Assembly: GCF_007197995.1 (NCBI RefSeq)
Contig: NZ_VKKH01000005.1
Span: 1-64,000 of the forward strand
DNA from: Aliiglaciecola sp. M165
GTDB lineage: Bacteria > Pseudomonadota > Gammaproteobacteria > Enterobacterales > Alteromonadaceae
Direction: 5' to 3'
DNA length: 64,000 nucleotides
Both the position numbers and the translations under genes were made by a program. The notes under the pieces were generated by a model. That model was not told the DNA's origin and did no database searches. It saw only the letters and a list, made by a program, of their open reading frames with translations. Below are positions 6,916-59,099 of this stretch, one piece after another (within the stretch, counting starts at the first letter, position 1; each line of letters starts with the position of its first letter).

Positions 6916-8771
6916 TACGACAACCCTTCTTTATTTTTCGACGTTGTGCGCAACAACCTTGCTAATAGCATTAGTAACAGCATCAAAGCAAAAGGTGCTA
7001 CGGCAATATTGGTGAATTTTAACCAATTGCCGAGTTTTTCAATATCTTTGTCTAATTGATGACGCACATCGCGCAGTTCTTTTCGAATCTCAACCTTCTT
7101 ATCAACGAAGTCATCTATGGCTTGCTGCTGTTCAGCAGACAGCACCAAAGCAGCGCCTTCTGTTTGTTGAGATTGCAATTGAGCAAGTTGTGCTTCAGTT
7201 TCGTCCAATTGTTGCTGAAGAATTTGTTCCTGTTCACGGAATTTTCGCTCAGCTTCAACGGTTAGAGCGTCTACAGTTGTAAACGGCCGCGCAAAGGTTC
7301 CTCTGCTGCGAATACTGATTAAAGCGTCACTACCGGCCAAGTTTTCAACGGCATTTGTGACAAAATCGCCGTTATTGGCAAAAGGTGTATAAACCGTCTG
7401 TCCGAAAAAATTTGCCTGTTGTACCCAAAATCTGTCTGCCAACATATCTGTATCGCCAACCACAATCGCATTAAGTTGAGTGGTGTAGGAGACAAAATCT
7501 TGTTGCGCTGCACCCTCTGGTGCTGTTTCAAATGCAGAATTTGCAGCACCACTTATTCTAGCGGCTAAAATATGTCTGCTGTTTTCGCTTGAAAACTCTC
7601 TCGCTAAAGATTGCGGATCGCGGTTCATAGAATAAGGTGCAACAGCCATCAAGTCGGTATCATCGGATGACGTCATCAATGGTAACCATTCAAGTTGACT
7701 ATCCTCAGTGCGACCAAAGACACCAAAAGATGCACCGTTGATAATTTCCAAACTCGCAGTTGTCACGTCATCGCGATCCAATTGCTGCGCCCCAACACCT
7801 ACGAAACCAAAGTGCCTGGAAACACCACCATCTGCTGTGCGAATATCTAGTCCTAATTCTGCATCGAGTAATACTTCGTCGCTGTTAAAAGACAGTCCCC
7901 AGGCAGAAAACAGTTGTTGCAAATTAGAGCTGTTGGGGCCCATTGCCCCCATCCCGGCCATCATCGCCATGGGATCCGATTCATTGTTTGGATCAACAAA
8001 TGCCAATAGCTTGCCACCTTTCATCACATATTGGTCGATGGCATACATTAGTGACTCGTTGAGAGCCTTAGGATGCACTAGGATCAAAACATCAGTTTGC
8101 TCAGGCAAAGCGTCAGCGTTGTTTGCGATTTTTTCTACCGAGTACAATTGTTCGAGTTGCGATAAAAACGTCCAAGCGGGGTCAAATTGCCCCGTCATTG
8201 GATTTTGTCCACCAGAAAGCGGTAAGTCACTTATCAAGGTGACATTAACGGATGCAGGTTTCGATAAGGTGTGAATAAGTTTACTAATTTCATATTCAAG
8301 AAATTTCTCTTTTTGCGGGTCAAAAAAAGCGATGACTTCTTGATCATCAAGGGCATTCGTTGCTGCCAAGCCTAAATAAATAGAATCACCCAGATTACCC
8401 AGGGTTGCCGCAGTTAAGCCAAATTGATTGGCCTGGTCCTCTGCTTCAGAAAACGGCTCCGGATCGATCACATTCAGTTTGATTTTTCCTGGCGCAGCAT
8501 TGGCATATTCCCTAAGCATACTCTCAACTCGGCTCGCATAATTGCGCAGCGTTGTCATGCCTTTGGAAGATTTGTCAGAATAAAAGAAATAGAAATTGAT
8601 CGGCTCATCAATACTTTCGACTATTTGCTTACTACCAGAAGAAAGTGAATACACTTTGTTTTCGGTCAAATCTAAGCGCACCGGGGAAAGCAACTGATTG
8701 TTTAATATGGTCAAAGCAAAAAACAGCACTGCCAATAAAATCAAAATTAAAGAGGTGGAGAATTTATTCAT
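6915..8771 (-). CDS. GldG-like ABC transporter auxiliary protein
   Basis: In this 618-aa protein an N-terminal transmembrane helix (about 5-25) precedes a long periplasmic GldG/ABC-type uncharacterised domain with LDLTENKVYSLSSGSKQIVE, the typical start of this family. Further blocks are VLILVHPKALNESLMYAIDQ and GGKLLAFVDPNNE. Residues about 505-580 form a glutamine-rich coiled coil (EQEQILQQQLDETEAQLAQL), followed by a C-terminal membrane helix and basic tail. It pairs with the adjacent permease and ATPase. In Bacteroidetes GldA/F/G is linked to gliding; in gammaproteobacteria the role is not established. Confidence 0.85.
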   Translation of the reverse strand: MNKFSTSLILILLAVLFFALTILNNQLLSPVRLDLTENKVYSLSSGSKQIVESIDEPINFYFFYSDKSSKGMTTLRNYASRVESMLREYANAAPGKIKLNVIDPEPFSEAEDQANQFGLTAATLGNLGDSIYLGLAATNALDDQEVIAFFDPQKEKFLEYEISKLIHTLSKPASVNVTLISDLPLSGGQNPMTGQFDPAWTFLSQLEQLYSVEKIANNADALPEQTDVLILVHPKALNESLMYAIDQYVMKGGKLLAFVDPNNESDPMAMMAGMGAMGPNSSNLQQLFSAWGLSFNSDEVLLDAELGLDIRTADGGVSRHFGFVGVGAQQLDRDDVTTASLEIINGASFGVFGRTEDSQLEWLPLMTSSDDTDLMAVAPYSMNRDPQSLAREFSSENSRHILAARISGAANSAFETAPEGAAQQDFVSYTTQLNAIVVGDTDMLADRFWVQQANFFGQTVYTPFANNGDFVTNAVENLAGSDALISIRSRGTFARPFTTVDALTVEAERKFREQEQILQQQLDETEAQLAQLQSQQTEGAALVLSAEQQQAIDDFVDKKVEIRKELRDVRHQLDKDIEKLGNWLKFTNIAVAPFALMLLLMLLARLLRTTSKNKEGLS

Positions 8772-9510: not shown

Positions 9511-10433
9511 TATGCCTGCTCTCCTTGGGTTAATTCTCTAAAAACTTGGTCTAAACGGCCCTGCTCTACAAACATGGTATCCACAGGCAATCGCCTCTCT
9601 TTTATATGTTCGGTCACAGAGTGCAGCACATCGGCTCCGTTTCGGGTGATCAAGGTTACCTTGCTGTTAGGTAGGTCGTCTTCGATGTCAATCACATTGT
9701 CCAGCTCTAAAAACCCAGAGGTGTCCGATGGGTAACTAAGATGAAGTGTTACCGCATTATGGTATTTCGATTTTCTAAGTAAGGCTTTTGGAGTGTCGTC
9801 AAACATCAGCTGTCCAGCAGAAATAATCATAACGCGATTACATACAGCCGTTACTTCTTCAAGAATGTGGGTGGAAATCACCACGATTTTATCTTTGGAA
9901 AGGTTCTGGATGAGTTCTCTGACTTGATGTTTTTGATTTGGGTCTAAGCCATCTGTGGGCTCATCTAAAATCAAAATTTGTGGATCATGCAAAATCGCTT
10001 GCGCCAGCCCCACCCTTCTTTTAAAGCCTTTAGACAAATTTTCGATTGGCTTGTCCAATACCGACTGCAGCTCAATTTGTTTAACGACGGTGCTAATCCG
10101 CTCGTCTTTGTGCTGCCCTTTTAAACCGCGAACTTTAGCGATGAATTCCAAAAATTGCAGAGGTGTCATATCCCCGTATGCTGGCGCGCCTTCAGGCAAG
10201 TAGCCAATCATCTGTTTGATTTTTTTGGCGTCGTCGACAATGGACAAATCGGCAATTTGTATTTCCCCGCCCGTTGGCGCAAGAAATCCAGTCAACATTT
10301 TCATCGTAGTGGATTTTCCCGCACCGTTTGGACCTAAAAAACCCACCACGTCTCCGGGTTGGATATTAAAAGAAAGGTCATTAACCGCGACAAAATCACC
10401 AAACGTTTTAGACAAATTATTTACATAGATCAT
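9510..10433 (-). CDS. ABC transporter ATP-binding protein (GldA-like)
   Basis: A 307-aa cytoplasmic ATPase. Walker A is GPNGAGKST (residues 34-42), the ABC signature is LSKGFKRRVGLAQ (about 133-145), and Walker B is ILILDEPTDGLDP followed by the switch histidine in VISTHILEE. The C-terminal 80 residues form the extra domain seen in ABC-2 exporters (CcmA/NatA/GldA type). It is the first gene of the four-gene minus-strand operon, with the permease directly coupled. It powers the GldF/GldG-like complex. Confidence 0.9.
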   Translation of the reverse strand: MIYVNNLSKTFGDFVAVNDLSFNIQPGDVVGFLGPNGAGKSTTMKMLTGFLAPTGGEIQIADLSIVDDAKKIKQMIGYLPEGAPAYGDMTPLQFLEFIAKVRGLKGQHKDERISTVVKQIELQSVLDKPIENLSKGFKRRVGLAQAILHDPQILILDEPTDGLDPNQKHQVRELIQNLSKDKIVVISTHILEEVTAVCNRVMIISAGQLMFDDTPKALLRKSKYHNAVTLHLSYPSDTSGFLELDNVIDIEDDLPNSKVTLITRNGADVLHSVTEHIKERRLPVDTMFVEQGRLDQVFRELTQGEQA

Positions 10434-10562
10434 ACTATTCCCATAATGATCAACGAGTTAACGAAATCCACTGGATATATGGTGTTCGCAAAAAAGAATT
10501 CAAGGATTGATCGCGACAATTTCTGTCGAAATCCAGGTCAAAATTTTGAGGGTAAGCATACT

Positions 10563-10613
10563 AAAAAAAATGACTTAAACCAGAACTAATGCGACGATTA
10601 GTCAGGTTTAAGC
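10563..10613 (-). terminator. Minus-strand intrinsic terminator with no known gene upstream
   Basis: Read on the minus strand, GGCTTAAACC...GGTTTAAGTC forms a hairpin of about 9 bp with an inner ATTAG/CTAAT-like stem. It is followed by CA and eight Ts. The divergent trmO gene begins on the other side, so no minus-strand coding gene ends here. It may be an attenuator in the leader of the ABC operon or the end of a small RNA. Confidence 0.6.
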
Positions 10614-10699
10614 CAATATTGGTCCGGGAAGTGAACAAGGACTAGTCTACGCCTAAAGTATGTCGAATTCGTGTCATATCCGGAGATAAGTTTTACAAA

Positions 10700-11404
10700 A
10701 TGTGTCAAATAACCATAGATCCAATTGCCATTATCCATACTCCGTTTAAAGAAAAGTTTGCGATCCCGCGTCAACCGGGCCTTGCGTCAGAAGCAAAAGG
10801 ACATATCGTTTTTCGAGCAGATTATTCCTCCGCGGATTTTGTGCGTGGACTGGACCAGTTCAGCCATATCTGGTTGATGTTTCAATTTCACCAAACCGCT
10901 AAGCCATCTCACCCTCCATTGGTGAGGCCTCCCAGATTGGGCGGAAACAAAAAAATCGGCGTGTTTGCTTCCCGCAGCACGCATCGTCCTAACAACCTTG
11001 GCATGAGCGTAGTCAAACTCGATTCGGTAACACTTAAGGATAACGCGGTGAGTTTATTGGTTTCAGGCGTGGATTTGCTCGACGGAACGCCAATAATAGA
11101 TATTAAGCCCTATATTCCTTACAGTGACGCAATACCTGAGGCCATGGCCGGATACGCGCAACAGGCACCTAGAGCACATTTGCATGTTCAGTTTGAAGAA
11201 AGCGCAAAATCGCAACTCATTGAGCAAAAAACTAAACATACTGATTTGGAATTACTGATCAGACAGGTATTGGCGCAAGATCCTCGCCCCGCATATCACC
11301 AACAAAAAACTTCTGATCGGGTGTATGGCGTCAGTTTGTATGACCTCAATATTCAATGGAGAGTCGAAGACGACCAGTGCATCGTTACCAACATTTCAGG
11401 CTAA
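10700..11404 (+). CDS. trmO: tRNA (N6-threonylcarbamoyladenosine(37)-N6)-methyltransferase TrmO
   Basis: TrmO (TsaA/YaeB family) methylates t6A37 to m6t6A in threonine tRNAs, using S-adenosylmethionine bound by a single-sheet beta-barrel. The 234-aa protein begins with the typical IDPIAIIHTPFKEKFAIPRQ. It carries GVFASRSTHRPNNLGMSVV and the LLDGTPIIDIKPYIPYSDA block, all diagnostic. It is next to proS, as in E. coli (yaeB near proS), supporting orthology. It is divergent from the ABC operon. Confidence 0.93.
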   Translation: MCQITIDPIAIIHTPFKEKFAIPRQPGLASEAKGHIVFRADYSSADFVRGLDQFSHIWLMFQFHQTAKPSHPPLVRPPRLGGNKKIGVFASRSTHRPNNLGMSVVKLDSVTLKDNAVSLLVSGVDLLDGTPIIDIKPYIPYSDAIPEAMAGYAQQAPRAHLHVQFEESAKSQLIEQKTKHTDLELLIRQVLAQDPRPAYHQQKTSDRVYGVSLYDLNIQWRVEDDQCIVTNISG

Positions 11405-11554
11405 TACCAATTCCAATGAGTATAAAGTTTACTTGGCTAAGCCACTAAAGCACTTATTGATGACATTATTCCTTTGGCCTTTTCAGTGGTGCTGTTAGAA
11501 TGTCGCCCGCCCAAAAAAGTTTGAATTTTGTGAAGATAAGGAACTGCACAGACA

Positions 11555-13270
11555 ATGCGTACTAGCCAATATTTATTGTCCACCCAAAAAGAAACTCCAG
11601 CAGATGCTGAGGTGATTAGTCATCAACTTATGTTACGGGCGGGAATGGTTCGCAAACTCGCATCTGGCTTATACACCTGGCTACCGACTGGCCTTCGGGT
11701 ATTAAATAAAGTAGCAAATATTGTACGCGAAGAAATGAATAAAGCAGGCTCAATTGAAATGTTGATGCCCGTCGTGCAACCTGCTGATTTATGGCAGGAA
11801 AGTGGTCGCTGGGAAGAATACGGCCCAGAGTTGCTTCGTATTAAAGACCGCCATCACAGAGATTTTGTTTTGGGACCCACTCACGAAGAAGTCATCACCG
11901 CGTTAGTGAAAAACGAAATTAGTAGCTATAAACAGTTACCGCTCAACCTGTACCAAATTCAAACCAAATTCCGAGACGAAGTGCGACCGCGATTTGGCAT
12001 CATGCGTGGACGAGAGTTCACCATGAAAGACGCTTACTCCTTCCACACCGCGCAAGAATCATTGGAAGACACCTACAAAGACATGTTTACCGCCTATTGC
12101 AATATTTTTGATCGCATGGGCTTGGAATATCGTCCCGTCATTGCTGATTCTGGCTCCATTGGTGGTGCTGTATCACATGAATTTCATGTATTGGCTGAAT
12201 CTGGCGAAGATGCCATCGCTTTTAGCGATTCTTCGGACTATGCAGCAAATGTCGAAATGGCTGAGGCCATCGCACCGCAAGTTAGTGCCGCTGAGGCAAC
12301 AGAAGAAAAAAGTCAGATTGATACACCAGACGTGTCAAGCATCGAAGATGTCACTAATTTTTTCCAGATCAGTGCAGACAAGGTAGCAAAAACGATCGTT
12401 GTGCTGGGTGAGGCCGATGAAAATGGTAAACAAGGGCTTGTCGCGCTTGTGTTACGCGGTGATCATCAGTTAAACGAGATAAAAGCTGAAAAATTAGAAG
12501 GTGTAGCTATCCCGCTCGCGTTGGCTAACAATGATAAAATTGTAGCTGAACTGGGATGCGAAATAGGTTCCCTTGGACCTGTGGACTTAAATATTCCAGT
12601 GTTTGCTGATCGCAGTGCGGCTGTGTTAAGTGATTTTATCTGTGGCGCAAATATTACGGGTAAACACTTAAAAGGTGTGAACTGGGATCGTGATGTAAGT
12701 GAATATCAGGTCGCGGATTTACGTAACATTGAAGCAGGTGATCCCTCACCCGACGGCGAAGGAAAGCTCGAAATCAAACGAGGGATAGAAGTCGGTCACA
12801 TTTTCCAGCTGGGTGACAAATATTCAAAGGCCATGGGTTGTGGCGTACTGAATGAACAAGGCAAGCACCAAATCCTAACGATGGGTTGTTATGGGATTGG
12901 GGTGTCAAGAATAGTCGCTGCCGCCATTGAACAAAATCACGACAAATATGGCATTATCTGGCCAGACGCAATCGCGCCATTTAAAATTGCACTGATCCCG
13001 ATGAACATGCATAAATCTCATCGCATACAGCAAGTTGCAGAGAAAATGTATGATGAACTAATAGCAGCGGGTATCGATGTGCTGTTTGATGATCGCAAGG
13101 AACGCCCAGGTGTCATGTTCAATGATATGGAACTTGTTGGTGTACCCCATACAATAGTGATTGGCGAAAGAAATCTTGACGAAAATAAAGTGGAATATAA
13201 AAACCGTCGCTCTGGAGAAAAGCAGCTTCTGGATATTGACGGTATCCTTGAATGGGTGAAAACCCTGTAG
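11555..13270 (+). CDS. proS: Prolyl-tRNA synthetase (bacterial type with INS editing domain)
   Basis: This 571-aa cytoplasmic class IIa synthetase charges tRNA-Pro. The N-terminal [21 protein letters not shown] is the standard opening. Motif 2 lies around [20 protein letters not shown], the INS editing domain occupies about 224-407, and motif 3 is [16 protein letters not shown]. The anticodon-binding domain includes [23 protein letters not shown] lies about 12 nt before the ATG. The INS domain clears Ala-tRNA-Pro. Confidence 0.97.
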
Positions 13271-48478: not shown

Positions 48479-49609
48479 TTAGCCTTTCATGACAAGCTCA
48501 AATTGTTGTTTGTGCAGAATTTGTCCATTGATGATGACCTCCACAAAGTGTGTCCCTGGATAATAGACTCGGGTGGTTATTGGCTTAATTCCATGGTTCT
48601 TTTGTAAAACAAGCGATTTGCCAGCGGCCACTTCGATATTTTTCCACTTAAAGACCTTTGCAGTGCGGGTACCATTCGCTTTGAGATGATGGATCGCATA
48701 GTCAATCATCAAACGTTGAGGGCGCTCGGTGCCATTGGTTAATGACAAGGTGAAAGTCAACACATCGCCAAAATGCAACTGGGTTTTGTTCAGGTCCAAT
48801 TTGATTGAATTTAAAACCGCAGGGTGAAAACCGAAACTCTTCAATACCCGTGGATGACCTTGTTTAAGTAATGTTCGGCATCCGTGCTTAACAAGCCTTT
48901 GTCGATTTTTATCCGCTTTCAGCAGCCAATCTGCCGCAATAGTTGCAACCAAATCAGGATGGTCCTTTGCGATATCGTTGAGATTGTTAGCGACAGATCG
49001 TCGAACATATTCGTCAGGATCATCTTTGAGTTTTTCTAACAGAGCAATGATTGGACTGGGATCAGCAACAAACTTTTTTAGTTGCATGCCCCAGGGTAAG
49101 CGCGGACGCGTACCTTCTGATACCAACCTTCTAACATGCACATTGTTATGCGCACACCAATCGTGTAATACCGGCAACACATTCTCGGCATATTCATCCA
49201 GAAATGGGCGGATGGCAAACTCTGCCGAAAAGCGCATGGTAAGTTGTTGTAAAAGTGAAAGCGACCGTTCTAAATGTGTTTGGCCTCGCAAAGCGACATA
49301 GTCCGCCATCGGCATAATCGCCCACCCCCTTAGCCCAGTATTCAGCTCGTCCGTTGGATGTTTTTCTTCAATACTTGGTGGTGCCAATGAGCCTTCAATA
49401 AATTGCGTAGCAGCTAAAAAATCTTCAGGTAAATACGCACACATTGCTTCAACAATTTGATTTGAGCGGGCTTTAAGCTCTAAAGAATTAAAATCTTTTG
49501 TGGCGTGCTGACAAAAACCCTGCTGATCAAACTTGTTATCCTGCTTGGCAAAATGGACTGCCATGTTGTTCACAAGTTTTATATTAAATACGTTCTTAAA
49601 CGGCTCCAT
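48479..49609 (-). CDS. AlkC-like DNA alkylation repair glycosylase with C-terminal Ig-like domain
   Basis: AlkC/AlkD proteins remove alkylated bases with a HEAT-like repeat scaffold. This 376-aa protein has the family-specific VHVRRLVSEGTRPRLPWG block (about residues 156-173), followed by repeats such as YVRRSVANNLNDIAKDHPDL. The final 110 residues (from LNKTQLHFGDVLTFTLSLTN) form a beta-sandwich like the Ig-like domain of the AlkC-alpha subtype. AlkC prefers N3-methyladenine and N3-methylcytosine. It sits next to the LysR gene on the same strand, 29 nt downstream, without evident functional link. Confidence 0.82.
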   Translation of the reverse strand: MEPFKNVFNIKLVNNMAVHFAKQDNKFDQQGFCQHATKDFNSLELKARSNQIVEAMCAYLPEDFLAATQFIEGSLAPPSIEEKHPTDELNTGLRGWAIMPMADYVALRGQTHLERSLSLLQQLTMRFSAEFAIRPFLDEYAENVLPVLHDWCAHNNVHVRRLVSEGTRPRLPWGMQLKKFVADPSPIIALLEKLKDDPDEYVRRSVANNLNDIAKDHPDLVATIAADWLLKADKNRQRLVKHGCRTLLKQGHPRVLKSFGFHPAVLNSIKLDLNKTQLHFGDVLTFTLSLTNGTERPQRLMIDYAIHHLKANGTRTAKVFKWKNIEVAAGKSLVLQKNHGIKPITTRVYYPGTHFVEVIINGQILHKQQFELVMKG

Positions 49610-49638: not shown

Positions 49639-50550
49639 CTAACTTTTTATCATAATTTTAGCTATCAGATCTCTAAACCACAGCAATGCGTGGTCATGCT
49701 GGGTGTTTTGATGCCAATAAAGATGGGTCTCAATGTTGGGCATCTTAAATGGCAGTGCCAAAACACTCAGATGCTCGTCACAGAGTCTATGGGCAAGCGC
49801 AGTGGGTAAGGTTAACAGCATGGGCACATCCGTTAACATATCTCTAGCGGCATAATAATTTTGACAACGGATCGCTACGTTGCGAGAAAGCCCTTGCCCT
49901 TGCAGAATAAGATCTTCTACAGCAGCGCCAGTTGGCCGATGAGAAACGCTAATATGCCGTTTAGAAAAATACTCTTTTTGGGTTAATGCTTTTTCTTTTA
50001 ACAATGACTTATCTACCAATATACTGAAGCTATCGTCCAGCATGCGCTGGTGCAAAATGGGTGATTTCATCGGCATAGCCACATCAAAAACCATATCCAC
50101 CTGACCTGCCGTTAGCATCCTACCAAGCTGATTGCGCTCAACTTTAATACTCGCTAATGTGGTGCCTGGAGCGATCTCAGACATTTTCCGTATGATTTTT
50201 GGCAGTATAGCGGGCTCTAACGCATCGTGAATGCCAATACGAAAATGGTGTTGGCTAGTGCCGGGGTCGAAGTCCCCCCATTGTTGAAGCATTTGTCGAA
50301 GTCGCGACAAATTATCAATGATCAAAGGTGCCATTCGCTGGCAAGCTGGTGTCGGCAACATTTGATTTTTACTGCGTACAAATAAAGGATCTTGCAGGCA
50401 CTCCCGCAATCTTTTTATCGCATGGCTAACAGCTGAGGGCGTAATATGCATTTGCTCGGCCGTTCGCGTCATATTCTGCTCTTGGTAAAGACTTTCAAAT
50501 ACTTTGAGCAAATTGAGATCAAGTTGTTGGATTTCTCGTTGATGTTTCAT
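49639..50550 (-). CDS. LysR-family transcriptional regulator
   Basis: A 303-aa protein with an N-terminal winged helix-turn-helix (LDLNLLKVFESLYQEQNMTR, AEQMHITPSAVSHAIKRLRE) and a periplasmic-binding-protein-like effector domain (about 95-300). It is divergent from the acyl-CoA dehydrogenase operon with a 104-bp shared intergenic region containing a dyad. This is the normal layout for LysR control of the divergent pathway. The inducer is probably a pathway acyl compound, by inference only. Confidence 0.88.
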   Translation of the reverse strand: MKHQREIQQLDLNLLKVFESLYQEQNMTRTAEQMHITPSAVSHAIKRLRECLQDPLFVRSKNQMLPTPACQRMAPLIIDNLSRLRQMLQQWGDFDPGTSQHHFRIGIHDALEPAILPKIIRKMSEIAPGTTLASIKVERNQLGRMLTAGQVDMVFDVAMPMKSPILHQRMLDDSFSILVDKSLLKEKALTQKEYFSKRHISVSHRPTGAAVEDLILQGQGLSRNVAIRCQNYYAARDMLTDVPMLLTLPTALAHRLCDEHLSVLALPFKMPNIETHLYWHQNTQHDHALLWFRDLIAKIMIKS

Positions 50551-50560
50551 GACAAAAGCA

Positions 50561-50575
50561 ATGAATTTAGTTCAT
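50561..50575. promoter_or_regulatory. Candidate LysR-box dyad
   Basis: ATGAATTTAGTTCAT has perfect 5-bp arms around a 5-nt centre and contains the T-N11-A pattern of LysR-type operators. It lies 10 bp from the LysR start and 80 bp from the acyl-CoA dehydrogenase start. A weak -10-like TATGCT (50622-50627) with TTCATT 18 nt upstream may be the operon promoter. Confidence 0.45.
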
Positions 50576-50654
50576 AGTTACTTGATACTATATTTCATTT
50601 CATTCAAATACAAACTTCCGCTATGCTGGTTGCAAATTGACATTGGAGAAGACC

Positions 50655-51884
50655 ATGGATTTTCAACCTAGCAGCAAAGGCCAAGAGTATCTAGCGCAAC
50701 TAAAAGCGTTCATGAATGAACATGTGTACCCGATAGAAAATCAAATCTATTCTGAGTTGGAAGAACTTAACCCAACGGGGGATTGGAAGAATTGGAAAGT
50801 CCATCCCAAGATCGATGAACTCAAAGCGTTGGCAAAACAGCAAGGTTTGTGGAATTTGTTTTTACCTGACGATGAGTTGGGTAAAGGACTCAGTTGCATT
50901 GAATACGCGCCACTGGCGGAAGAAATGGGGCGCGTGCCTTTTACGCCGGAAATCTTTAACTGTAATGCGCCAGATACAGGCAATATGGAAGTGCTTTATC
51001 ATTTCGGCTCACAGCAGCAAAAACAGACTTGGTTAACCCCTCTGCTAGCTGGCAAGATTCGCTCGGTATTTGGTATGACCGAACCCGATGTGGCTTCCTC
51101 TGATGCCACAAACATGGCTGCCACCATTGAACTGGACGGCGATGAGGTGGTGATAAACGGTAAAAAATGGTGGAGCACAGGACTAGGACACCCTAATGCC
51201 AAGGTGACCATTTTTATGGGCTTATCAAACCCAGAAAATGACCGCCACGCGCAACACAGCATGGTGATCGTTCCGTTGGACACCCCAGGTATTGAAATCA
51301 AAAGAATGCTGACGGCCTATGGCGATTATGATGCCCCCTTCGGCCATGGTGAAATGCATTTTACCAACGTTCGCGTTCCCAAAGAAAACATCATTATGGG
51401 ACTTGGAAAAGGCTTCGCCATTGCCCAGGGGCGCTTAGGTCCTGGTCGCATTCATCATTGTATGCGTGCAATCGGTATGGCCGAAAAAGCGCTGGAGCTG
51501 GCGATCAAACGTGGAGCATCGCGCACAGCGTTTGGCAAGCCTTTGATCAAGCTGGGAGGCAATGGAGAACGCATTGCCGACGCTAGAATGGCGATTGATC
51601 AAGCCCGCCTTCTAACCTTGAATGCTGCATGGAAAATCGATGCCGTTGGCGTAAAAAATGCCATGACAGAAATTTCAGCAATCAAAGTTGTGGTGCCGCG
51701 TATGTTACAAAGTGTTGTCGATATGGCTATCCAGATGCATGGTGGAGCGGGCATGTGCAATGACTTCCCATTAGCTCGATTTGCTGCGGGAGCTCGGGCA
51801 TTGAGATTGGCCGATGGCCCAGATGAAGTGCATCAAGGTATGGTGACACGTTTAGAGTTGGCCAAATATAAACCTAAGAACTAA
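50655..51884 (+). CDS. ACAD10/11-like acyl-CoA dehydrogenase family protein
   Basis: The ATG at 50655 is chosen because GGAGA lies 6 nt upstream; an earlier TTG at 50637 adds six residues. The 409-aa FAD protein strongly resembles the ACAD domain of ACAD10/ACAD11: FGMTEPDVASSDATNMAAT, INGKKWWSTGLGHP, GFAIAQGRLGPGRIHHCMR and ALRLADGPDEVHQ. In the last, the usual catalytic Glu position of medium-chain enzymes appears to hold Asp (DGPDEVH). In ACAD11-type and LvaC-type proteins this fold eliminates phosphate from 4-phosphoacyl-CoA. First gene of a seven-gene operon with an APH kinase. Confidence 0.85.
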   Translation: MDFQPSSKGQEYLAQLKAFMNEHVYPIENQIYSELEELNPTGDWKNWKVHPKIDELKALAKQQGLWNLFLPDDELGKGLSCIEYAPLAEEMGRVPFTPEIFNCNAPDTGNMEVLYHFGSQQQKQTWLTPLLAGKIRSVFGMTEPDVASSDATNMAATIELDGDEVVINGKKWWSTGLGHPNAKVTIFMGLSNPENDRHAQHSMVIVPLDTPGIEIKRMLTAYGDYDAPFGHGEMHFTNVRVPKENIIMGLGKGFAIAQGRLGPGRIHHCMRAIGMAEKALELAIKRGASRTAFGKPLIKLGGNGERIADARMAIDQARLLTLNAAWKIDAVGVKNAMTEISAIKVVVPRMLQSVVDMAIQMHGGAGMCNDFPLARFAAGARALRLADGPDEVHQGMVTRLELAKYKPKN

Positions 51885-51905
51885 CCCTAAAGAGCACAGC
51901 CATAC

Positions 51906-52691
51906 ATGAAACATGTTTTAATCACCGGCGCAGGTTCCGGATTAGGTAAAGCCATAGCCCAGCAATATGTTGGGATGGATGTCTCGTTGTGTATTGCCGA
52001 TGTCAATGCAGACGCCGCACAACAAAGCGCTCAAGCGCTAGTCAGTCTGGGCCAGGATGCTTGGAGCATCGCCTGCGATATTACTAGTGAAAAAGATATT
52101 GAAGCCTTGATTGCCGAGGTAACTAATCGCTGGGGAAGTATCGATGTATTGGTCAACAATGCAGGTGTAGCCACCGGCGGGGCCTTGGAATTCGAAGATA
52201 TCGATCAGTGGCAATGGGTGATGAATATCAATCTGTTAGGTATGGTAAGAATGACCCGTGCCTGCGTTCCCCTGATGCAACCTGGCGCAAAAATCATCAA
52301 TATTGCCTCGCAGGCGGGCATTACACCTATCCCACTTATGGGGAGTTACAATGCGAGCAAGGCTGCGGTTGTCAGCTTTTCAGAAACCATGCATCTAGAA
52401 TTGGCACATCAAGGTATACATGTGAGTGTCGCCTGCCCGTCATTTTTCCCGACAAACCTGGATAAATCGTTACGCAGTAAACAGCCGGGAATCGGCTCGC
52501 TAGTAAGCAAAATGCTTAGCAAGTCAGACATGGATGCAAACCAGGTTGCCAAAGCAATTATTCAGCAGGCAAATGCAGGCAGATTCATGATATTGACTCA
52601 CAAGGATGGCAAAACCGCTTATACTCTGAAACGATTTTTACCGACAAAAACCTATCTGAATATGATTAAACAAAAAACCAAAAAAAATTGA
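51906..52691 (+). CDS. Short-chain dehydrogenase/reductase (SDR)
   Basis: A 261-aa classical SDR. NAD(P) motif TGAGSGLGKAIA (residues 7-18), structural NNAGVATGG, Ser in NIASQAG and the active-site YNASK. An acidic residue (D in CIADVNAD) ends the second strand, suggesting NAD(H) over NADPH. It lies between the ACAD and APH genes, so it may interconvert a hydroxyl and a keto group on the same acyl-CoA. The substrate is inferred only. The C-terminus is basic (KQKTKKN). Confidence 0.85.
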   Translation: MKHVLITGAGSGLGKAIAQQYVGMDVSLCIADVNADAAQQSAQALVSLGQDAWSIACDITSEKDIEALIAEVTNRWGSIDVLVNNAGVATGGALEFEDIDQWQWVMNINLLGMVRMTRACVPLMQPGAKIINIASQAGITPIPLMGSYNASKAAVVSFSETMHLELAHQGIHVSVACPSFFPTNLDKSLRSKQPGIGSLVSKMLSKSDMDANQVAKAIIQQANAGRFMILTHKDGKTAYTLKRFLPTKTYLNMIKQKTKKN

Positions 52692-52710
52692 TGAATATAA
52701 GAGGTCATCA

Positions 52711-53817
52711 ATGAACCAAGCGGACAATCTTGACGCCCAAAGCAACACAAAAAATACTGCCATAGATACAGCCGGAAACGTAAGACGTGGCGAAGAGCTT
52801 GATTTGCAAAAGCTCAATCCATGGTTAGTTGAGCAGCTTGGTGATGTCTCTGGCATACCTGAGGTAACGCAATATTCTGGCGGCGCATCCAACTGGACTT
52901 ATTGTCTTGTTTATCCAGAAAAAGAAGTCATTTTGCGCCGCGCACCAAAAGGCACAAAAGCTAAAGGTGCCCATGATATGGGCCGTGAATACCGTCTGCA
53001 AAAAGCCCTGAAGCCTGTTTATCCTTATGTTCCAGAGATGCTTGCCCACAGTGATGATGATTCACTGATTGGTAGCGAATTTTATGTGATGGAAAAATTT
53101 ACCGGCCTGATCCCTCGTAAAAATCTACCAAGAGGTGTTTCGCTGGATAAAGCGCAAACACGAGAATTATGCTTGAAGGCTCTAGACAGTCTGATTGAGT
53201 TGCACCAAGTCGATTACAAAGCGGCAAACCTCGAACATTTAGGCAAGGGGGTGGGTTACACTCAACGTCAGATCGAAGGTTGGACTGCCCGTTACTCCAA
53301 GGCTAAAACCTGGAATGTGCCCAAAGCCAAATACGTGATGAATTGGCTCAGAAACAATATTCCAGCCAATGAGCATATTTGCATTACACACAATGACTTT
53401 CGTTTTGACAACCTGGTGTTAGATGCCGAGCAACCCACCAACATTCTCGGTGTGCTAGATTGGGAACTTGCTACCTTGGGGGATCCACTAATGGACTTAG
53501 GCAACAGTTTAGCCTATTGGGTAGAAGCAGGTGATGACCGTATCGCCAAAGGAACACGAAGACAACCCACTCACCTTGACGGAATGTTAACTCGCCAAGA
53601 GGTGATCGATTATTATCTTCAAAAAACCGGTTTTAAGGTAGATGATTTTACATTTTATGAAGTCTATGGCCTGTTCCGTTTAGCCGCAATCGCTCAGCAG
53701 ATCTATTACCGATATCATCATAAGCAAACCGATAATCCGGCCTTCAAGAATATCTGGTTCTTTGTGCATTACTTGCTTTGGCGTTGTAAAAAGGCCATAA
53801 AACGAGGCCAGTCATGA
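52711..53817 (+). CDS. APH-fold kinase of the ACAD10/11 / LvaA type
   Basis: A 368-aa aminoglycoside phosphotransferase-fold protein. The nucleotide loop is YSGGASNWTYCL, the lysine-equivalent strand is VILRRAPKGTKAKGAHD, and the catalytic loop (Brenner motif) is ITHNDFRFDNLVLD, where HGD is replaced by HND. The metal-binding segment is LGVLDWELATLGDPLMDLGN. The overall pattern, including GSEFYVMEKFTGLIPRK, is that of the N-terminal kinase domain of ACAD10/ACAD11, which phosphorylates the 4-hydroxyl of 4-hydroxyacyl-CoA. Aminoglycoside resistance is unlikely. Overlaps the next gene by 4 nt. Confidence 0.85.
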   Translation: MNQADNLDAQSNTKNTAIDTAGNVRRGEELDLQKLNPWLVEQLGDVSGIPEVTQYSGGASNWTYCLVYPEKEVILRRAPKGTKAKGAHDMGREYRLQKALKPVYPYVPEMLAHSDDDSLIGSEFYVMEKFTGLIPRKNLPRGVSLDKAQTRELCLKALDSLIELHQVDYKAANLEHLGKGVGYTQRQIEGWTARYSKAKTWNVPKAKYVMNWLRNNIPANEHICITHNDFRFDNLVLDAEQPTNILGVLDWELATLGDPLMDLGNSLAYWVEAGDDRIAKGTRRQPTHLDGMLTRQEVIDYYLQKTGFKVDDFTFYEVYGLFRLAAIAQQIYYRYHHKQTDNPAFKNIWFFVHYLLWRCKKAIKRGQS

Positions 53818-54515
53818 CCATTATTTACCTTATTAGGCACGGGCAGGCGTCTTTTGGAAAACAAAACTACGATAACCTTTCCGAACATGGCCACCAACAA
53901 GCCAGAATTTTAGGTGAGTCATTACAATCTCGAGTGGGTCAGTTTGATAAGCTTGTTTTGGGCAGTATGCTCCGTCATCGGCAAACACTAGAAAATTGTC
54001 TCAATGCAATGCAGCATGCATTCGATGAAGACGACCTGCGGATAGAAGCTGGCTGGAACGAGTATGATCACAATGACATTCTTGCTCAGTTAGGCCCTGA
54101 GTTTTGTGATGCGCCATCAATCGAGCGCTGGGTGCGCAGTCAAACGCATCCTAAGAAGGCCTTCGAGTCGATGTTCAATCGTGCAATGGACCGTTGGATA
54201 GCGGGAGAGCACGATGATGAGTATGTCGAATCCTGGCAGCACTATCAGCAGCGGATCAGACAGGCGCTTAGTAATACAATTGACTATGCGGGTGAGGCAA
54301 AGCATGTCGCGGTATTTTCTTCAGGCGGGCCAATATCTGTAGTCAGTCAGGCATTGCTCGGTGTCGACCCAAGCAAAGTCATGCAGGTCAACTGGACGTT
54401 GGTGAATTGTGGTATCACCAAGCTTGTCAGTACAGGATCTCGTCTTTTTGTTTCGACGTTAAATGATCACAGTCATTTTGAGGGCAAAGACAAAGCCCTT
54501 ATAACCTACAAATAA
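53814..54515 (+). CDS. Histidine phosphatase family protein
   Basis: A 233-aa branch-1 histidine phosphatase (phosphoglycerate-mutase fold). The phosphohistidine motif is IYLIRHGQASFGKQNYD at the N-terminus; the second arginine is in LGSMLRHRQTLENCL, Glu in AGWNEYDHND, and the distal histidine region is VAVFSSGGPISVVSQALLG, where the usual H of the SHG motif is S. This suggests altered or weak phosphatase activity. The 4-nt ATGA overlap with the kinase gene links it to phosphate chemistry of the same pathway. Confidence 0.8.
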   Translation: MTIIYLIRHGQASFGKQNYDNLSEHGHQQARILGESLQSRVGQFDKLVLGSMLRHRQTLENCLNAMQHAFDEDDLRIEAGWNEYDHNDILAQLGPEFCDAPSIERWVRSQTHPKKAFESMFNRAMDRWIAGEHDDEYVESWQHYQQRIRQALSNTIDYAGEAKHVAVFSSGGPISVVSQALLGVDPSKVMQVNWTLVNCGITKLVSTGSRLFVSTLNDHSHFEGKDKALITYK

Positions 54516-54537
54516 AACAAAATAAGAATCAAATCAT

Positions 54538-55287
54538 ATGCTAAGAAAAAATATTCTCATTACAGGTGCCAGCTCCGGCCTTGGTAAAGGTATGGCAATT
54601 GAATTTGCCAGGATGGGGCGAAATTTGGCGCTTTGTGCCCGTCGTGTCGAACGATTAGAAGAGTTAAAGGCTGAGCTGCAATCCATCAACCCAGACATCA
54701 AAATCTCGGTGATGCCTCTCGATGTGGACAACCACGACCAGGTATTTGAAGTGTTTCAAGCATTTAAACAAGAATTTGGCGAGATTGATCGGATCATAGT
54801 CAACGCAGGTATGGGCAAAGGCGCTTCTATCGGTACCGGCTACTTTTATGCTAATAAACAAACTGCTGTCACTAATTTCGTTTCAGCATTGGCCCAGTGT
54901 GAAGCAGCGATGGAGATTTTCAGGGAGCAAAATGCCGGGCACTTAGTGACAATATCTTCAATCAGTGCATTTCGTGGCGCGCGCCGCGCTATGACTGTCT
55001 ATGCCGCGACCAAAGCTGGCTTAAGCAGTATGACTGAGGGATTACGCATTGATGTGCTGGGAACACCCATAAAAGTGTCTACAGTACACCCGGGGTTCAT
55101 ACGCAGTGAAATCAATGAAAAAGTGAAAAAAGTCCCTTTTATTGTCGATACTGAAACAGGCTGCAAAGCGATGGTTAAAGCGATTGAAAAAGAAGGCGGA
55201 AATAGCTATGTACCCGTTTGGCCTTGGGCATTTATGCGCTTTATTCTAAAAATAGCTCCGCTTAGCTGGCTCAAGAAAATGAGCTAA
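54538..55287 (+). CDS. Short-chain dehydrogenase/reductase (SDR)
   Basis: A 249-aa classical SDR distinct from the other one in this operon. TGASSGLGKGMAIEFARMG binds the nucleotide; an Arg-Arg pair (LCARRVERLEEL) after the second strand suggests NADPH preference. Further motifs are IIVNAGMGKG, catalytic Ser in VTISSISAFRG and YAATK, and a C-terminal hydrophobic stretch (WPWAFMRFILKIAPLSWL) that may attach it to the membrane. It might reduce a keto-acyl substrate in the direction opposite to the first SDR. Substrate unknown. Confidence 0.83.
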   Translation: MLRKNILITGASSGLGKGMAIEFARMGRNLALCARRVERLEELKAELQSINPDIKISVMPLDVDNHDQVFEVFQAFKQEFGEIDRIIVNAGMGKGASIGTGYFYANKQTAVTNFVSALAQCEAAMEIFREQNAGHLVTISSISAFRGARRAMTVYAATKAGLSSMTEGLRIDVLGTPIKVSTVHPGFIRSEINEKVKKVPFIVDTETGCKAMVKAIEKEGGNSYVPVWPWAFMRFILKIAPLSWLKKMS

Positions 55288-55316
55288 TTGAAGGTTCACA
55301 TCAAGGTGTATATGTG

Positions 55317-56177
55317 ATGCAAGATTCATTTTTGACCCAGACAGCGTTGCCGATCATCATTGCACTGATCATGTTTGGCATGGGCCTGAGTTTAGTGGTT
55401 GGAGACTTCCTACGGGTCGTCAAAATGCCAAAAGCCATTGCGGCGGGTCTACTAGGGCAAATCATTTTAATGCCAGCCCTAGCCTTTGTGATTGCTATCG
55501 GGTTTGAACTGAGCACACCTTTGGCGATTGGCTTAATGATTTTAGCGGCTTGCCCTGGCGGTACTATGTCCAATGTTATCAGTCATATTGCGCGAGCAAA
55601 CTTAGCGCTTTCGGTGACGATGACCTCTATATCGACGGTAATCTGTGTATTTTCGACGCCATTTATCATTGCATTGGCGATAAGGTATTTCTCTCAATCG
55701 GACATTCAAGACTTTTCGATTGGGCACACCACTGTGTCATTGATCATGATTACTTTAATCCCTGTGTCCATTGGTTTGTTTGTTCGACACAAATTCGAAG
55801 CAACCGCCCTTTACCTTGAACCCTACTTTAGACGATTCTCCAGCGTCTTTATTGCCTTGATGATAGTGGCAATATCTATCGAAGAACGTAACACTTTAAT
55901 CTCGTCTTTTTCATCAGTCTTTATGGCGACACTCGGTCTAAACTTATTAGCAATCGGTGTAGGGCTCGCCCTTGGCTGGATAACGAAATTGCCGGCGATT
56001 GATGGAGTCACCCTGGGCATTGAAGTGGGTATTCAAAATGCTGCGTTAGCAATTTTGATTGCAGTATCTATCCTAAAACATCCTGACTATGCCATTTCAG
56101 CAGGCGTATATGGAGTGACCATGTATATAGGTGCCTTTTTATTGGCTATACTGGCTAAAAAAACCCACAACAGGTAA
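55317..56177 (+). CDS. BASS-family (bile acid:sodium symporter-like) transporter
   Basis: The ATG at 55317 is chosen, with AAGGTG about 8 nt upstream; a GTG one codon earlier is possible. The 286-aa protein is very hydrophobic with about nine or ten transmembrane helices. GLLGQIILMPALAFVIAIGF, ILAACPGGTMSNVISHIARA and EVGIQNAALAILIAVSIL are the BASS sodium and substrate motifs. It is likely a Na+-coupled uptake system for an organic anion used by the operon. Confidence 0.87.
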   Translation: MQDSFLTQTALPIIIALIMFGMGLSLVVGDFLRVVKMPKAIAAGLLGQIILMPALAFVIAIGFELSTPLAIGLMILAACPGGTMSNVISHIARANLALSVTMTSISTVICVFSTPFIIALAIRYFSQSDIQDFSIGHTTVSLIMITLIPVSIGLFVRHKFEATALYLEPYFRRFSSVFIALMIVAISIEERNTLISSFSSVFMATLGLNLLAIGVGLALGWITKLPAIDGVTLGIEVGIQNAALAILIAVSILKHPDYAISAGVYGVTMYIGAFLLAILAKKTHNR

Positions 56178-56186
56178 TGCCAAACT

Positions 56187-57101
56187 ATGAGCAACCCATC
56201 AGATAAGCTGATTTCCAACGATTGCGAAAAAGCCCCCTGCCCTGCGATTAAACTGCTCATCCACCCAAAAGAGAAGGACATTGGTGATTTCTCTGTTAGA
56301 CGGCTATTACCCTTTGCAAAACAGCGTATGGTTGGCCCTTGGATTTTCTTCGATCACATGGGTCCTGCTGACTTTTCACCTGGTCAGGGCATTAACGTTC
56401 GCCCTCACCCTCATATAAATCTGGCTACCGTTACCTACTTGTTTGAAGGAGAAATCCTACACAGGGACTCTTTAGGGTATAAACAAGCCATTAAACCTGG
56501 CGACATTAATTTAATGGTTGCGGGTAAAGGCATTGTGCATTCTGAACGCGAACGTCCGGAGGTCCATCAGCAATCGCACAGATTACATGGGTTACAATTA
56601 TGGATGGCTTTGCCCGAAGCAGATGAGGAAATTGACCCGGCCTTTTATCACTACCCCGACAAAGATATTCCTCATATTGATTTAAATGGTGTTGCGGTAA
56701 AAGTAATGATCGGCAGTGCCTACGGCCTTACATCGCCGGTAAAGACATTTGCCGATACTCTTTACATCGAGGCTCATCTTTCTGATGGACTGCAATTAGA
56801 TTTACCCAATGCGCAGCAGCGGGCTTTGTACGTAGCACAAGGAAAGATAGAGATAGCGGGTGTGGAAGTGAAGCAATACGAAATGGCAATTTTGAACAAT
56901 AGTGACACGCACTCGGTTGTTGCCACACAAGATGCCCGAATCGCTCTGATTGGTGGTGAAGAAATGTCTCCTCGCCATATGTATTGGAATTTTGCCTCCT
57001 CGTCCTTGGAACGTATTGAGCAAGCCAAACGCGACTGGCAACAAGGTAAATTTCCGAAAGTCCCAGGTGATGACAAGGAATTTATTCCTTTGCCCGAATA
57101 A
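56187..57101 (+). CDS. Pirin family protein
   Basis: A 304-aa bicupin. The N-terminal cupin contains VRPHPHINLATVTYLFEGEI, HRDSLGYKQAIKPGDINLMV and AGKGIVHSERE with the His, His, His, Glu iron ligands. The second cupin is degenerate. Some bacterial pirins have quercetinase activity or modulate metabolic enzymes such as pyruvate dehydrogenase. It is the last gene of the operon, 9 nt after the transporter gene. The role here is unknown. Confidence 0.87.
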   Translation: MSNPSDKLISNDCEKAPCPAIKLLIHPKEKDIGDFSVRRLLPFAKQRMVGPWIFFDHMGPADFSPGQGINVRPHPHINLATVTYLFEGEILHRDSLGYKQAIKPGDINLMVAGKGIVHSERERPEVHQQSHRLHGLQLWMALPEADEEIDPAFYHYPDKDIPHIDLNGVAVKVMIGSAYGLTSPVKTFADTLYIEAHLSDGLQLDLPNAQQRALYVAQGKIEIAGVEVKQYEMAILNNSDTHSVVATQDARIALIGGEEMSPRHMYWNFASSSLERIEQAKRDWQQGKFPKVPGDDKEFIPLPE

Positions 57102-57283: not shown

Positions 57284-58450
57284 ATGGATCAATTTTTAAA
57301 AGATACATCCCTGTCAGCAATTTCAGCGGGGTTTATTGCCGTGGTAGTTGGCTTTGCCAGCGCCATGGCCATAGTATTTCAAGCAGCACAAGCCGCCGGG
57401 GCTAACACACTTCAAATTGAATCTTGGGTGTGGGCCTTGGGCTTAGGCATGGGCATAAGCACTTTGGCTTTGTCTTTGTGGTACAAGCGACCGCTGATTA
57501 TCGCTTGGTCTACCCCCGGTGCAGCGTTGCTGGCAACCAGTTTAACCACAACCAATCTTGCGCAAACCACCGGGACTTTTTTATTTGTGGGCGCGCTGAT
57601 TTTTATTGTCGGTATAACGGGGATTTTTAGCCGAATCGGCCGCAGCATTCCATTACCAATAGCCTCTGCCATGCTCGCCGGAGTGTTAGTGCAATTTGGT
57701 CTTGGTCTGTTTACTGCAATCGAGCAGCAAGCGAGTTTGGTGTTGCTACTCATTTCGTCATTTCTCTTATTAAAACGCGTTGTCCCTCGTTATGCAGTGC
57801 CATTGGTTCTGGTCATTGGCACGATATTTTGCATTTGGAACGGCACTTTCCAATCACAGGCTTTGTCATTAAACTTAGCCTCACCGGAGTTTGTCATGCC
57901 GGAATTTTCGTTATCCTCGATGTTAGGGATTGGTATTCCGTTGTTCATCGTGACCATGACCTCACAAAATTTGCCAGGGGTCGCCATTTTAAAAAGCTGT
58001 GGTTATACCCAACAACGTATTTCACCGCTAATTACCACCACTGGGATCACCACGCTGATCTTTGCGCCTTTTGGAGGTTTCACCTATAACCTCGCGGCAA
58101 TTACCGCAGCGATATGCGCTAGTAAGGAGTCCCACCCGGATCCTGATAAGCGATATATTGCAGGTGTGTCTGTAGGTGTCTTTAACATTATCGCCGGATT
58201 GTTTGGAACAGCTGTAGTGGGGCTATTTGCAGCGTTTCCCCAAGCGTTAGTTGCAAGCATCGCCGGACTCGCTTTGTTGTCTACAATTTCAAGCAGTTTC
58301 CACAATGCTTTTGAAAAACCTCAATATCGAGAAGCTGCAATGTTAACCTTCTTATTAACCGCCTCAGGTATAAGCTTTTTTGGCATTGCGTCGGCTTTTT
58401 GGGGTATTGTATTAGGATTACTTACTGTCATGATTTCAGCTAAAAACTAG
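57284..58450 (+). CDS. BenE-like benzoate/H+ symporter family transporter
   Basis: A 388-aa protein with about 11-12 transmembrane helices. The opening SLSAISAGFIAVVVGFASAM, the motif AWSTPGAALLATS, and MTSQNLPGVAILKSCGY followed by APFGGFTYNLAAITAAICA are characteristic of BenE. It takes up benzoate or a related small organic acid with protons. Its start is only 6 bp from the operator pair, implying a very short leader. A GntR gene follows after 1 nt. No aromatic ring-degrading gene is nearby, so the substrate need not be benzoate. Confidence 0.85.
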   Translation: MDQFLKDTSLSAISAGFIAVVVGFASAMAIVFQAAQAAGANTLQIESWVWALGLGMGISTLALSLWYKRPLIIAWSTPGAALLATSLTTTNLAQTTGTFLFVGALIFIVGITGIFSRIGRSIPLPIASAMLAGVLVQFGLGLFTAIEQQASLVLLLISSFLLLKRVVPRYAVPLVLVIGTIFCIWNGTFQSQALSLNLASPEFVMPEFSLSSMLGIGIPLFIVTMTSQNLPGVAILKSCGYTQQRISPLITTTGITTLIFAPFGGFTYNLAAITAAICASKESHPDPDKRYIAGVSVGVFNIIAGLFGTAVVGLFAAFPQALVASIAGLALLSTISSSFHNAFEKPQYREAAMLTFLLTASGISFFGIASAFWGIVLGLLTVMISAKN

Positions 58451-58451
58451 T

Positions 58452-59099
58452 ATGCAAAAACAACCTGCACAGCAGTTATATGCAAAAATTAAACTGGATA
58501 TTCGCAGTAACCAGCTTCCAGTTGGTGAGCCGTTAAAACAAGAAGCCTTGTCAAAACGTTATGGCGTCAGCCGCATTCCTATTCGAGACGTTTTGCAGCG
58601 CTTAAAAAATGAAGGCTGGTTAACAGGCAGTGGCAAACGAGGAGTAATGGTTCCTCCTTTCACAGCAGGAGAAGCCGAAGATCTTTACATGATGAGAATG
58701 TACCTGGAACCTCTGTTGCTCGGCCACGCCATCCCAAAGTTAAACCAACAAACTCTTGGCAAAGCAGCGGATTTTCTAGCGGTGATTGATCAAAGTAAGG
58801 GATTGACGATTGAAGAGTTAGGTGAGCTAAATTGGCAGTTCCATGCCTGTTTATATGAAGCAGCCAATAGGCCCACCTTGTTCAACACTGTCGCCGCCTT
58901 ACATCAACAATGCGGAAGATATATTGGTTTCCATAGTCAAAAACTCAATTACTTAGAAGCAAGTCAAAAGGAACATTATCAATTACTCGACGCCGTGAAA
59001 CAAAAACAACTCAATCGCGGCAAAAATATATTAAAAGCACACATATCCGATGCAGGTGAAATACTTGTTGAATACCTTTTACAATCTTTACACTTTTAA
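58452..59099 (+). CDS. GntR-family regulator, FCD subfamily
   Basis: A 215-aa protein. The N-terminal winged helix has LKQEALSKRYGVSRIPIRD and VLQRLKNEGWLT. The C-terminal FCD effector domain has the expected metal-ligand histidines in NWQFHACLYEAANRPTL, QKEHYQLLDAV and LKAHISDAGEILVEYLL. It is separated from the transporter stop by 1 nt and is presumably an autoregulated repressor acting at the GTATAC pair upstream of the operon. The ligand is probably the transported acid. Confidence 0.88.
   Translation: MQKQPAQQLYAKIKLDIRSNQLPVGEPLKQEALSKRYGVSRIPIRDVLQRLKNEGWLTGSGKRGVMVPPFTAGEAEDLYMMRMYLEPLLLGHAIPKLNQQTLGKAADFLAVIDQSKGLTIEELGELNWQFHACLYEAANRPTLFNTVAALHQQCGRYIGFHSQKLNYLEASQKEHYQLLDAVKQKQLNRGKNILKAHISDAGEILVEYLLQSLHF

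Follow-up and report, generated by a model that had tools for sequence, protein, structure and literature searches.

The window analysed here, a 64,000-nucleotide stretch of the genome of Aliiglaciecola sp. M165 (contig NZ_VKKH01000005.1, positions 1 to 64,000), contains a genuine operon. In it an acyl-CoA dehydrogenase (ACAD) gene, a short-chain dehydrogenase/reductase (SDR) gene, an APH-fold kinase gene, a gene for a histidine-phosphatase-like protein (HP), a second SDR gene, a BASS transporter gene and a pirin gene follow one another on the forward strand, divergently from a LysR-type regulator gene (Table 1). SDR1 and SDR2 denote the first and the second SDR in operon order. Successive forward genes are spaced by 21, 19, −4, 22, 26 and 9 bp, the 4-bp overlap being that of the kinase and HP genes. 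All eight gene families score above the Pfam cut-offs, and the eight genes and their positions are as given in the original prediction, which had been made from the sequence alone. The operon is more than a chance neighbourhood, since 16 of 137 loci mapped in other genomes retain the order ACAD-SDR1-kinase-HP-SDR2. These loci were selected for matching the kinase or HP and comprise a 57-locus set and an 80-locus set; the latter holds the best 80 of 552 candidate loci, 67 of them with full flanks, and therefore leans to close kinases.

Table 1. Features of the operon and of its divergent upstream side (window coordinates)
Feature	Positions	Strand	Basis
LysR-type regulator	49639..50550	-	Pfam HTH_1 and LysR_substrate; divergent
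Divergent intergenic region LysR-ACAD, 104 bp	50551..50654	.	sequence; a single weak promoter-like match, beginning at 50549
ACAD of the ACAD10/11-LvaC kind, predicted 4-phosphoacyl-CoA eliminase	50655..51884	+	PDB matches, active-site residues, tree
SDR1, PRK05650 family, predicted NAD(H) type	51906..52691	+	327.7 bits, cut-off 297
APH-fold kinase, predicted 4-hydroxyacyl-CoA kinase	52711..53817	+	Pfam APH; D229, N234, R92 and R186 by alignment to ACAD11
HP, Ser170 replacing the second catalytic His	53814..54515	+	Pfam His_Phos_1; alignments; predicted fold
SDR2, PRK08251 family, predicted NADP(H) type	54538..55287	+	411.7 bits, cut-off 253
BASS/SBF transporter	55314..56177	+	Pfam SBF
Pirin	56187..57101	+	Pfam; last gene of the same-strand run

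Phosphorylation of a 4-hydroxyacyl-CoA followed by elimination of the phosphate is known chemistry, both from LvaA and LvaC and from ACAD10 and ACAD11. The suggestion that this operon holds a split ACAD10/11-like pair is supported: kinase and ACAD are separate open reading frames, and each has ACAD11 near the top of its PDB matches. The ACAD is numbered here from the ATG at 50655 rather than from an alternative upstream TTG at 50637, because the alignment to 4hr3 begins at that Met. In a PDB sequence search this M. abscessus protein was its best match (E 3.7e-171), followed by mouse and human ACAD11 (E 1.1e-129 for 8v3u and 2.2e-127), after which the next ACAD drops to E 7.8e-42. According to PMC12440821, substitution of R626, H634 or R637 in ACAD11 abolished or impaired the processing of 4-phosphoacyl-CoA, and D753 is the catalytic base. 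These four residues correspond, at a constant alignment offset of 366, to R260, H268, R271 and D387 of the operon ACAD. Their presence makes 4-hydroxyacyl-CoA phosphorylation followed by phosphate elimination the likely chemistry of the operon, and the phosphate motif together with the catalytic Asp supports what had been proposed for it. Moreover, since the ACAD mechanism works on C2-C3 while a leaving group departs from C4, as described in PMC11342911, the Arg-His-Arg motif would imply that the phosphate sits at C4. The motif is exact in 48 of the 49 ACADs that reach a score of 300 in the 80 loci, and the remaining one retains Arg, His and Arg. In an ACAD tree of 49 rows, with long outgroup branches and with neither LvaC nor ACAD10 among the rows, the Aliiglaciecola ACAD, 4hr3 and the operon relatives form a group of 20 rows (100/100). 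This group, ACAD11 and a second Aliiglaciecola ACAD lie within a group of 41 rows (100/100), apart from ordinary ACADs.

The phylogenetic check proposed together with the original prediction, run here against ACAD11, thus came out as expected for the ACAD but not for the kinase. In sequence, the best PDB matches of the kinase are 9o56 (E 5.3e-74), ACAD11 (8v3v, second, E 1.7e-46) and 3dxp (E 2.4e-44); 9fsg matches weakly (E 1.8e-6). The APH-fold catalytic residues of ACAD11, Asp D220 and Asn N225, correspond to D229 and N234, which, like R92 and R186, are invariant in all 20 aligned kinases. The predicted fold (pLDDT 89.8, below 50 for residues 1-17) matches 3dxp (Z 32.8, 320 aligned residues, root-mean-square deviation (rmsd) 2.5), the 25-hydroxysteroid kinase 9fsg in second place (Z 25.1, 328 aligned, rmsd 3.6) and ACAD11 (Z 19.6, 228 aligned, rmsd 2.8). 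In a midpoint-rooted kinase tree of 52 rows, in which L044_3133 and L136 have long branches, a single branch (100/100) parts 18 rows, including ACAD11, 3dxp and a second Aliiglaciecola kinase (L011), from 34 rows that include the operon kinase and 9o56. A placement of the operon kinase on the ACAD11 side was accordingly rejected. The second kinase, which does fall on that side, belongs to a second ACAD-kinase pair of the same genome (G000:C28 209843-212045), whose ACAD and kinase are 53% and 33% identical to those of the operon and which is followed by a zinc-type quinone-reductase-like gene. At this second locus (G000:C28:200000-219000, 9832-13113) there is no HP, and a TonB-receptor-like gene adjoins on the opposite strand.

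As to the two SDRs, an Asp at the end of strand 2 usually marks an NAD(H)-dependent and an Arg-Arg an NADP(H)-dependent member of this family. The Asp is found in 38 of 38 SDR1 relatives (at least 150 bits) and Arg-Arg after strand 2 in 51 of 51 SDR2 relatives (at least 200 bits), from which SDR1 is predicted to use NAD(H) and SDR2 NADP(H). These residues support, as a possibility, the earlier idea that the SDRs act at the 4-oxo/4-hydroxy position. They further suggest that the pair may interconvert C4 isomers, NAD-linked oxidation and NADPH-linked reduction together turning a poorly used isomer into the preferred one. A preference of this kind is described for the ACAD10 kinase, which favours R over S about fourfold (PMC11342911).

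The original prediction had left the histidine phosphatase as an unexplained extra part. It is indeed an extra part, but not a random one, since HP co-occurs with these kinases. Its predicted structure has the standard histidine phosphatase fold (pLDDT 94.7), with PGAM5 (Z 22.0, 175 aligned, rmsd 2.5) and PhoE (Z 21.2, 201 aligned, rmsd 3.4) as fold matches. A PDB sequence search gave no match at E 0.01. The RHG motif, the Arg and the Glu are retained: R8, H9, R54 and E83 are invariant in a 32-row alignment and G10 is present in at least 90% of the rows. In these respects, and in fold, HP is like the branch-1 histidine phosphatases PGAM5, PhoE, RosC and CobC, from which it is set apart by a Ser where they have their second catalytic His. 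We take Ser170 to occupy that position from the alignment with histidine phosphatases of the same genome and from the catalytic residues usual in the family. The His is present in three other histidine phosphatases of Aliiglaciecola sp. M165, the comparison covering three of the four others (L104 was left out). Ser170 is invariant in both the 32-row and a 28-row alignment; Ser stands at this place in 39 of 39 HPs of one set and in 42 of 42 HPs of the 80 loci (40 by pattern and two, with ATSGG, by eye). Given that Ser170, R8, H9, R54 and E83 are all invariant, the site is conserved but altered, and the possibility that HP is a decaying relic was rejected.

Could HP simply be an active phosphatase that hydrolyses 4-phosphoacyl-CoA as a step of the pathway? 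A histidine phosphatase of P. citronellolis has been proposed to possibly remove phosphate from a 4-phospho intermediate (PMC6692424), and among the open-access papers searched we found no other linking HP to the kinase. The invariant R8-H9, R54 and E83 and the canonical fold, predicted with high confidence, would suit an ordinary enzyme. However, all members read have Ser for the second catalytic His, plain hydrolysis would reverse the kinase and waste ATP, and many genomes with the kinase lack HP. Because of the Ser substitution we keep this explanation only as a rival, and an improbable one.

The association of HP with the kinase was assessed in a phylum sample of 398 genomes, with the kinase detected by the operon-kinase query at E ≤1e-30, which catches both sides of the kinase tree, and HP by profile at E ≤1e-25; the genome lists were compiled by hand from the match lists. 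The kinase was found in 131 genomes, HP in 70 and both in 68 (Fisher p 4.8e-37, with no correction for relatedness); G465 and G495 are the two with HP and no kinase. In 67 of the 70 there is just one HP copy. Within Aliiglaciecola's class, 49 of 51 kinase genomes have HP. In a separate sample of 274 genomes of that class, searched for HP less sensitively with a single protein, the kinase accompanies HP in 16 of 18 genomes, and HP is missing from 15 of the 31 that have the kinase; of the two HP genomes without a kinase match, G087 has a kinase fragment at a contig end. In Aliiglaciecola's family, eight genomes have both genes and the seven others listed have neither, one genus appearing on both sides.

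The linkage extends to gene order. The five-gene order occurs in seven of the 80 loci (Paraglaciecola L152, with BASS next, and L156; Shewanella L158 and L161; Pyxidicoccus L168; Kribbella L192 and L194) and in nine of the 57 (L030-L034, L109 and L112-L114); it is also seen in Pseudoalteromonas L150. The phyla concerned are Pseudomonadota, Myxococcota and Actinomycetota. Across the 67 full-flank loci, an ACAD lies near the kinase in 43, HP in 37, SDR2 in 36 and SDR1 in 20. HP shares a locus with the kinase and/or the ACAD in 14 of 18 cases (the 17 other HP loci of the 274-genome class sample plus Aliiglaciecola), and a Deinococcus plasmid carries SDR-kinase-HP. In G285 and G527, two genomes of Aliiglaciecola's family, HP is absent from the operon-type locus and present beside the second ACAD-kinase pair. 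As Aliiglaciecola itself has none at its second pair, the single HP seems to serve whichever ACAD-kinase pair it adjoins, or both pairs.

Other arrangements also occur. The second-pair loci of G285 and G527 (L249 and L250) read HP-ACAD-kinase-quinone-reductase-like. Alteromonas L154, L157 and L227 and locus L111 have SDR1-kinase-SDR2 with no ACAD or HP adjoining; in G285, the genome of L111, an ACAD lies elsewhere, beside a LysR gene (L248). The Pseudomonas-like locus L124 carries HP, a gene of 104 residues, the kinase and an SDR, with the ACAD elsewhere, adjoining a LysR gene. The 104-residue gene (7685-7999), between HP and kinase, is about the size reported for LvaB, and its product may be SCP2-like. 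Finally, a 58% kinase match lies in NZ_CP064203.1, a 3.97-Mb Acinetobacter baumannii record that is filed in the plasmid collection but has the look of a chromosome.

We consider it probable, at roughly 0.7, that the operon encodes a catabolic route feeding 4-hydroxyacyl-CoAs into beta-oxidation, with HP as an accessory dedicated to the kinase step. The acid might be imported by the BASS transporter and activated to its CoA ester by a ligase encoded elsewhere. SDR2, with NADPH, would reduce a 4-oxoacyl-CoA, and SDR1 may use NAD+ to oxidise whichever C4 isomer is the poorer kinase substrate, which would make both isomers usable. The kinase would then phosphorylate the C4 hydroxyl of the acyl-CoA. 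Judging from ACAD11, D387 of the ACAD would take the alpha proton while R260, H268 and R271 hold the 4-phosphate, and the phosphate would be expelled with a redox-cycling FAD to yield a 2-enoyl-CoA. HP would most plausibly either clear or proofread stalled 4-phospho intermediates or hold back the kinase in the way ACAD10's degenerate HAD domain does. According to PMC11342911, one aspartate of the DxD motif is missing from that domain, which shows negligible phosphatase activity and keeps the kinase in check; the likeness to HP is only an analogy. A more specific proposal makes the Ser-type HP a partner reserved for 4-hydroxyacyl-CoA kinases and not described in the papers found. Through its altered site it would bind 4-phosphoacyl-CoA or the kinase and set kinase output, and it would be a bacterial counterpart, of unrelated fold, of the ACAD10 HAD domain and of LvaB. 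We offer this tentatively, with the odds still against it.

Several observations weigh against such a route or parts of it. Pattern matching located the catalytic Asp in no more than 44 of the 49 ACADs of the 80 loci; two divergent operon ACADs, L041 and L044, show Arg-His-Arg and gave no such match for the Asp, and the L136 ACAD, though near a kinase, is without the whole motif. Kinase and ACAD are unlinked in Pseudomonas-like genomes, in some of which HP, too, lies apart from the kinase, and at 16 of the 67 full-flank loci the kinase has no ACAD and no HP nearby. At the threshold used, 63 of the 131 kinase genomes lack HP, 61 of them outside Aliiglaciecola's class. ACAD10 and ACAD11 work in vitro without a phosphatase. 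Taken with the 63 genomes, this means that HP is not needed for the chemistry itself. The strong split between the operon kinase and that of ACAD11 implies that their substrates may differ. Lastly, many loci carry only one of the two SDRs.

By comparison with characterised systems, the locus holds a pathway of a familiar type with its genes laid out differently. With ACAD11 and ACAD10, of which ACAD11 was the sequence compared, it shares the four ACAD active-site residues, the catalytic residues of the kinase and the pairing of an APH kinase with an ACAD. It differs in that the two halves, fused in mammals, are two genes here, that the kinase lies across the 100/100 split from that of ACAD11, and that two SDRs are added; in place of the HAD domain of ACAD10 the operon has HP. 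Like lvaRABCDEFG of P. putida, the operon brings together kinase, ACAD and SDR (described in part in PMC6692424 and PMC11342911), a likeness of gene content. Unlike lva, it is without LvaB and without an LvaE-type ligase, has LysR rather than the sigma-54 LvaR, and adds HP and a second SDR. The original prediction was right both in suspecting a different arrangement and in seeing no LvaB-like subunit: the gaps of at most 26 bp leave no space for an LvaB-sized gene between operon genes (only these gaps were checked; no LvaB sequence was compared and the rest of the genome was not searched for LvaB). The arrangement is nevertheless not peculiar to one genome, being found at the 16 of 137 mapped loci.

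This bears on whether the locus is a levulinate operon of the lva type in which HP replaces LvaB. The levulinate cluster of P. citronellolis LA18T speaks for it: according to PMC6692424, homologues of LvaA, LvaC and LvaD occur there with a histidine phosphatase and no lvaB, although in the order kinase-HP-ACAD-SDR. On the other hand, Pfam and NCBIfam gave no match to an LvaE-type or other CoA ligase, a sigma-54 LvaR-type regulator or an ActP-type protein among the ten proteins scanned. In addition, exactly one Ser-type HP was found in each of the 25 genomes searched from one Pseudomonas-type genus, and it lies upstream of an operon-type kinase in the three of them that were mapped (G322, G326 and G407). 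The HP of the P. citronellolis lva cluster may therefore belong to another subfamily. Among 199 Pseudomonas-type genomes scanned for the kinase, 194 gave a match; the one inspected showed a second locus type, LysR facing HP-ACAD-kinase, and LvaA was not identified in these genomes. We therefore regard a levulinate operon as distinctly unlikely. Levulinate as the specific substrate is unsupported by an operon with no CoA-ligase-type or LvaR-type gene and, in the absence also of an LvaB-type gene, is not favoured.

Still less likely, the kinase might ready some other alcohol for elimination, as the 25-hydroxysteroid kinase does in an ATP-dependent dehydration (PMC8449060). That enzyme, 9fsg, is the second fold match of the operon kinase and likewise has an APH fold and phosphorylates an alcohol before dehydration. 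Its sequence match is nonetheless weak compared with those of ACAD11 and 9o56, its substrate is a steroid tertiary alcohol, and the ACAD beside the operon kinase has the 4-phosphate residues. Least likely of all is an ordinary fatty-acid operon, with a normal FAD/ETF dehydrogenase and with kinase and HP modifying something unrelated, since the generic Pfam and NCBIfam names of ACAD, kinase and HP (no NCBIfam equivalog above cut-off) have to be set against the catalytic Asp and Arg-His-Arg cluster of the ACAD, the conserved linkage and the inactivity of ACAD10/11 on the plain acyl-CoAs tried in PMC12440821.

Of the remaining genes, the LysR-type regulator probably controls the operon; a LysR gene lies near the kinase in 21 of the 67 full-flank loci and adjoins the same operon type in further mapped loci. 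The gap between LysR and ACAD is the probable operator/promoter region. Over the whole scanned region, 19 promoter-like matches were found, compared with 14.3 (standard deviation 3.1) in shuffles, and eight terminators, compared with 7.8. The BASS transporter possibly imports the organic acid. It occurs beside the kinase mainly in near relatives: in five of the 80 loci, such as Paraglaciecola L152, in four of the 67 with full flanks, and in L109-L111, of the same family as Aliiglaciecola. Pirin was not seen adjoining the kinase in any other mapped locus, and its link to the pathway is unsupported. Given these distributions, BASS and pirin were rejected as core parts. Beyond pirin, a BenE-family transporter gene 182 bp away and then a GntR-type-regulator-like gene (57284-59099) probably form a separate unit; on the other side, the LysR gene is adjoined by a gene (48479-49609, minus strand) for a protein with weak DNA-alkylation-repair and HEAT-repeat matches.

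The type of pathway is thus already known and its split arrangement widespread, while the HP partner is a new part. Reports of the mammalian enzymes that handle 4-hydroxy fatty acids appeared only in 2024-2025 (PMC11342911, PMC12440821). The present analysis predicts functions for conserved families that carry only generic names, namely the PRK05650- and PRK08251-type SDRs, HP and the APH kinase. A bacterial version with each part on its own gene, and with an HP that tracks the kinase, would offer a simple system for studying how a phosphorylated intermediate is controlled. If the proposed role of HP is true, the same kinase would have acquired different phosphatase-like or small regulators in different lineages.

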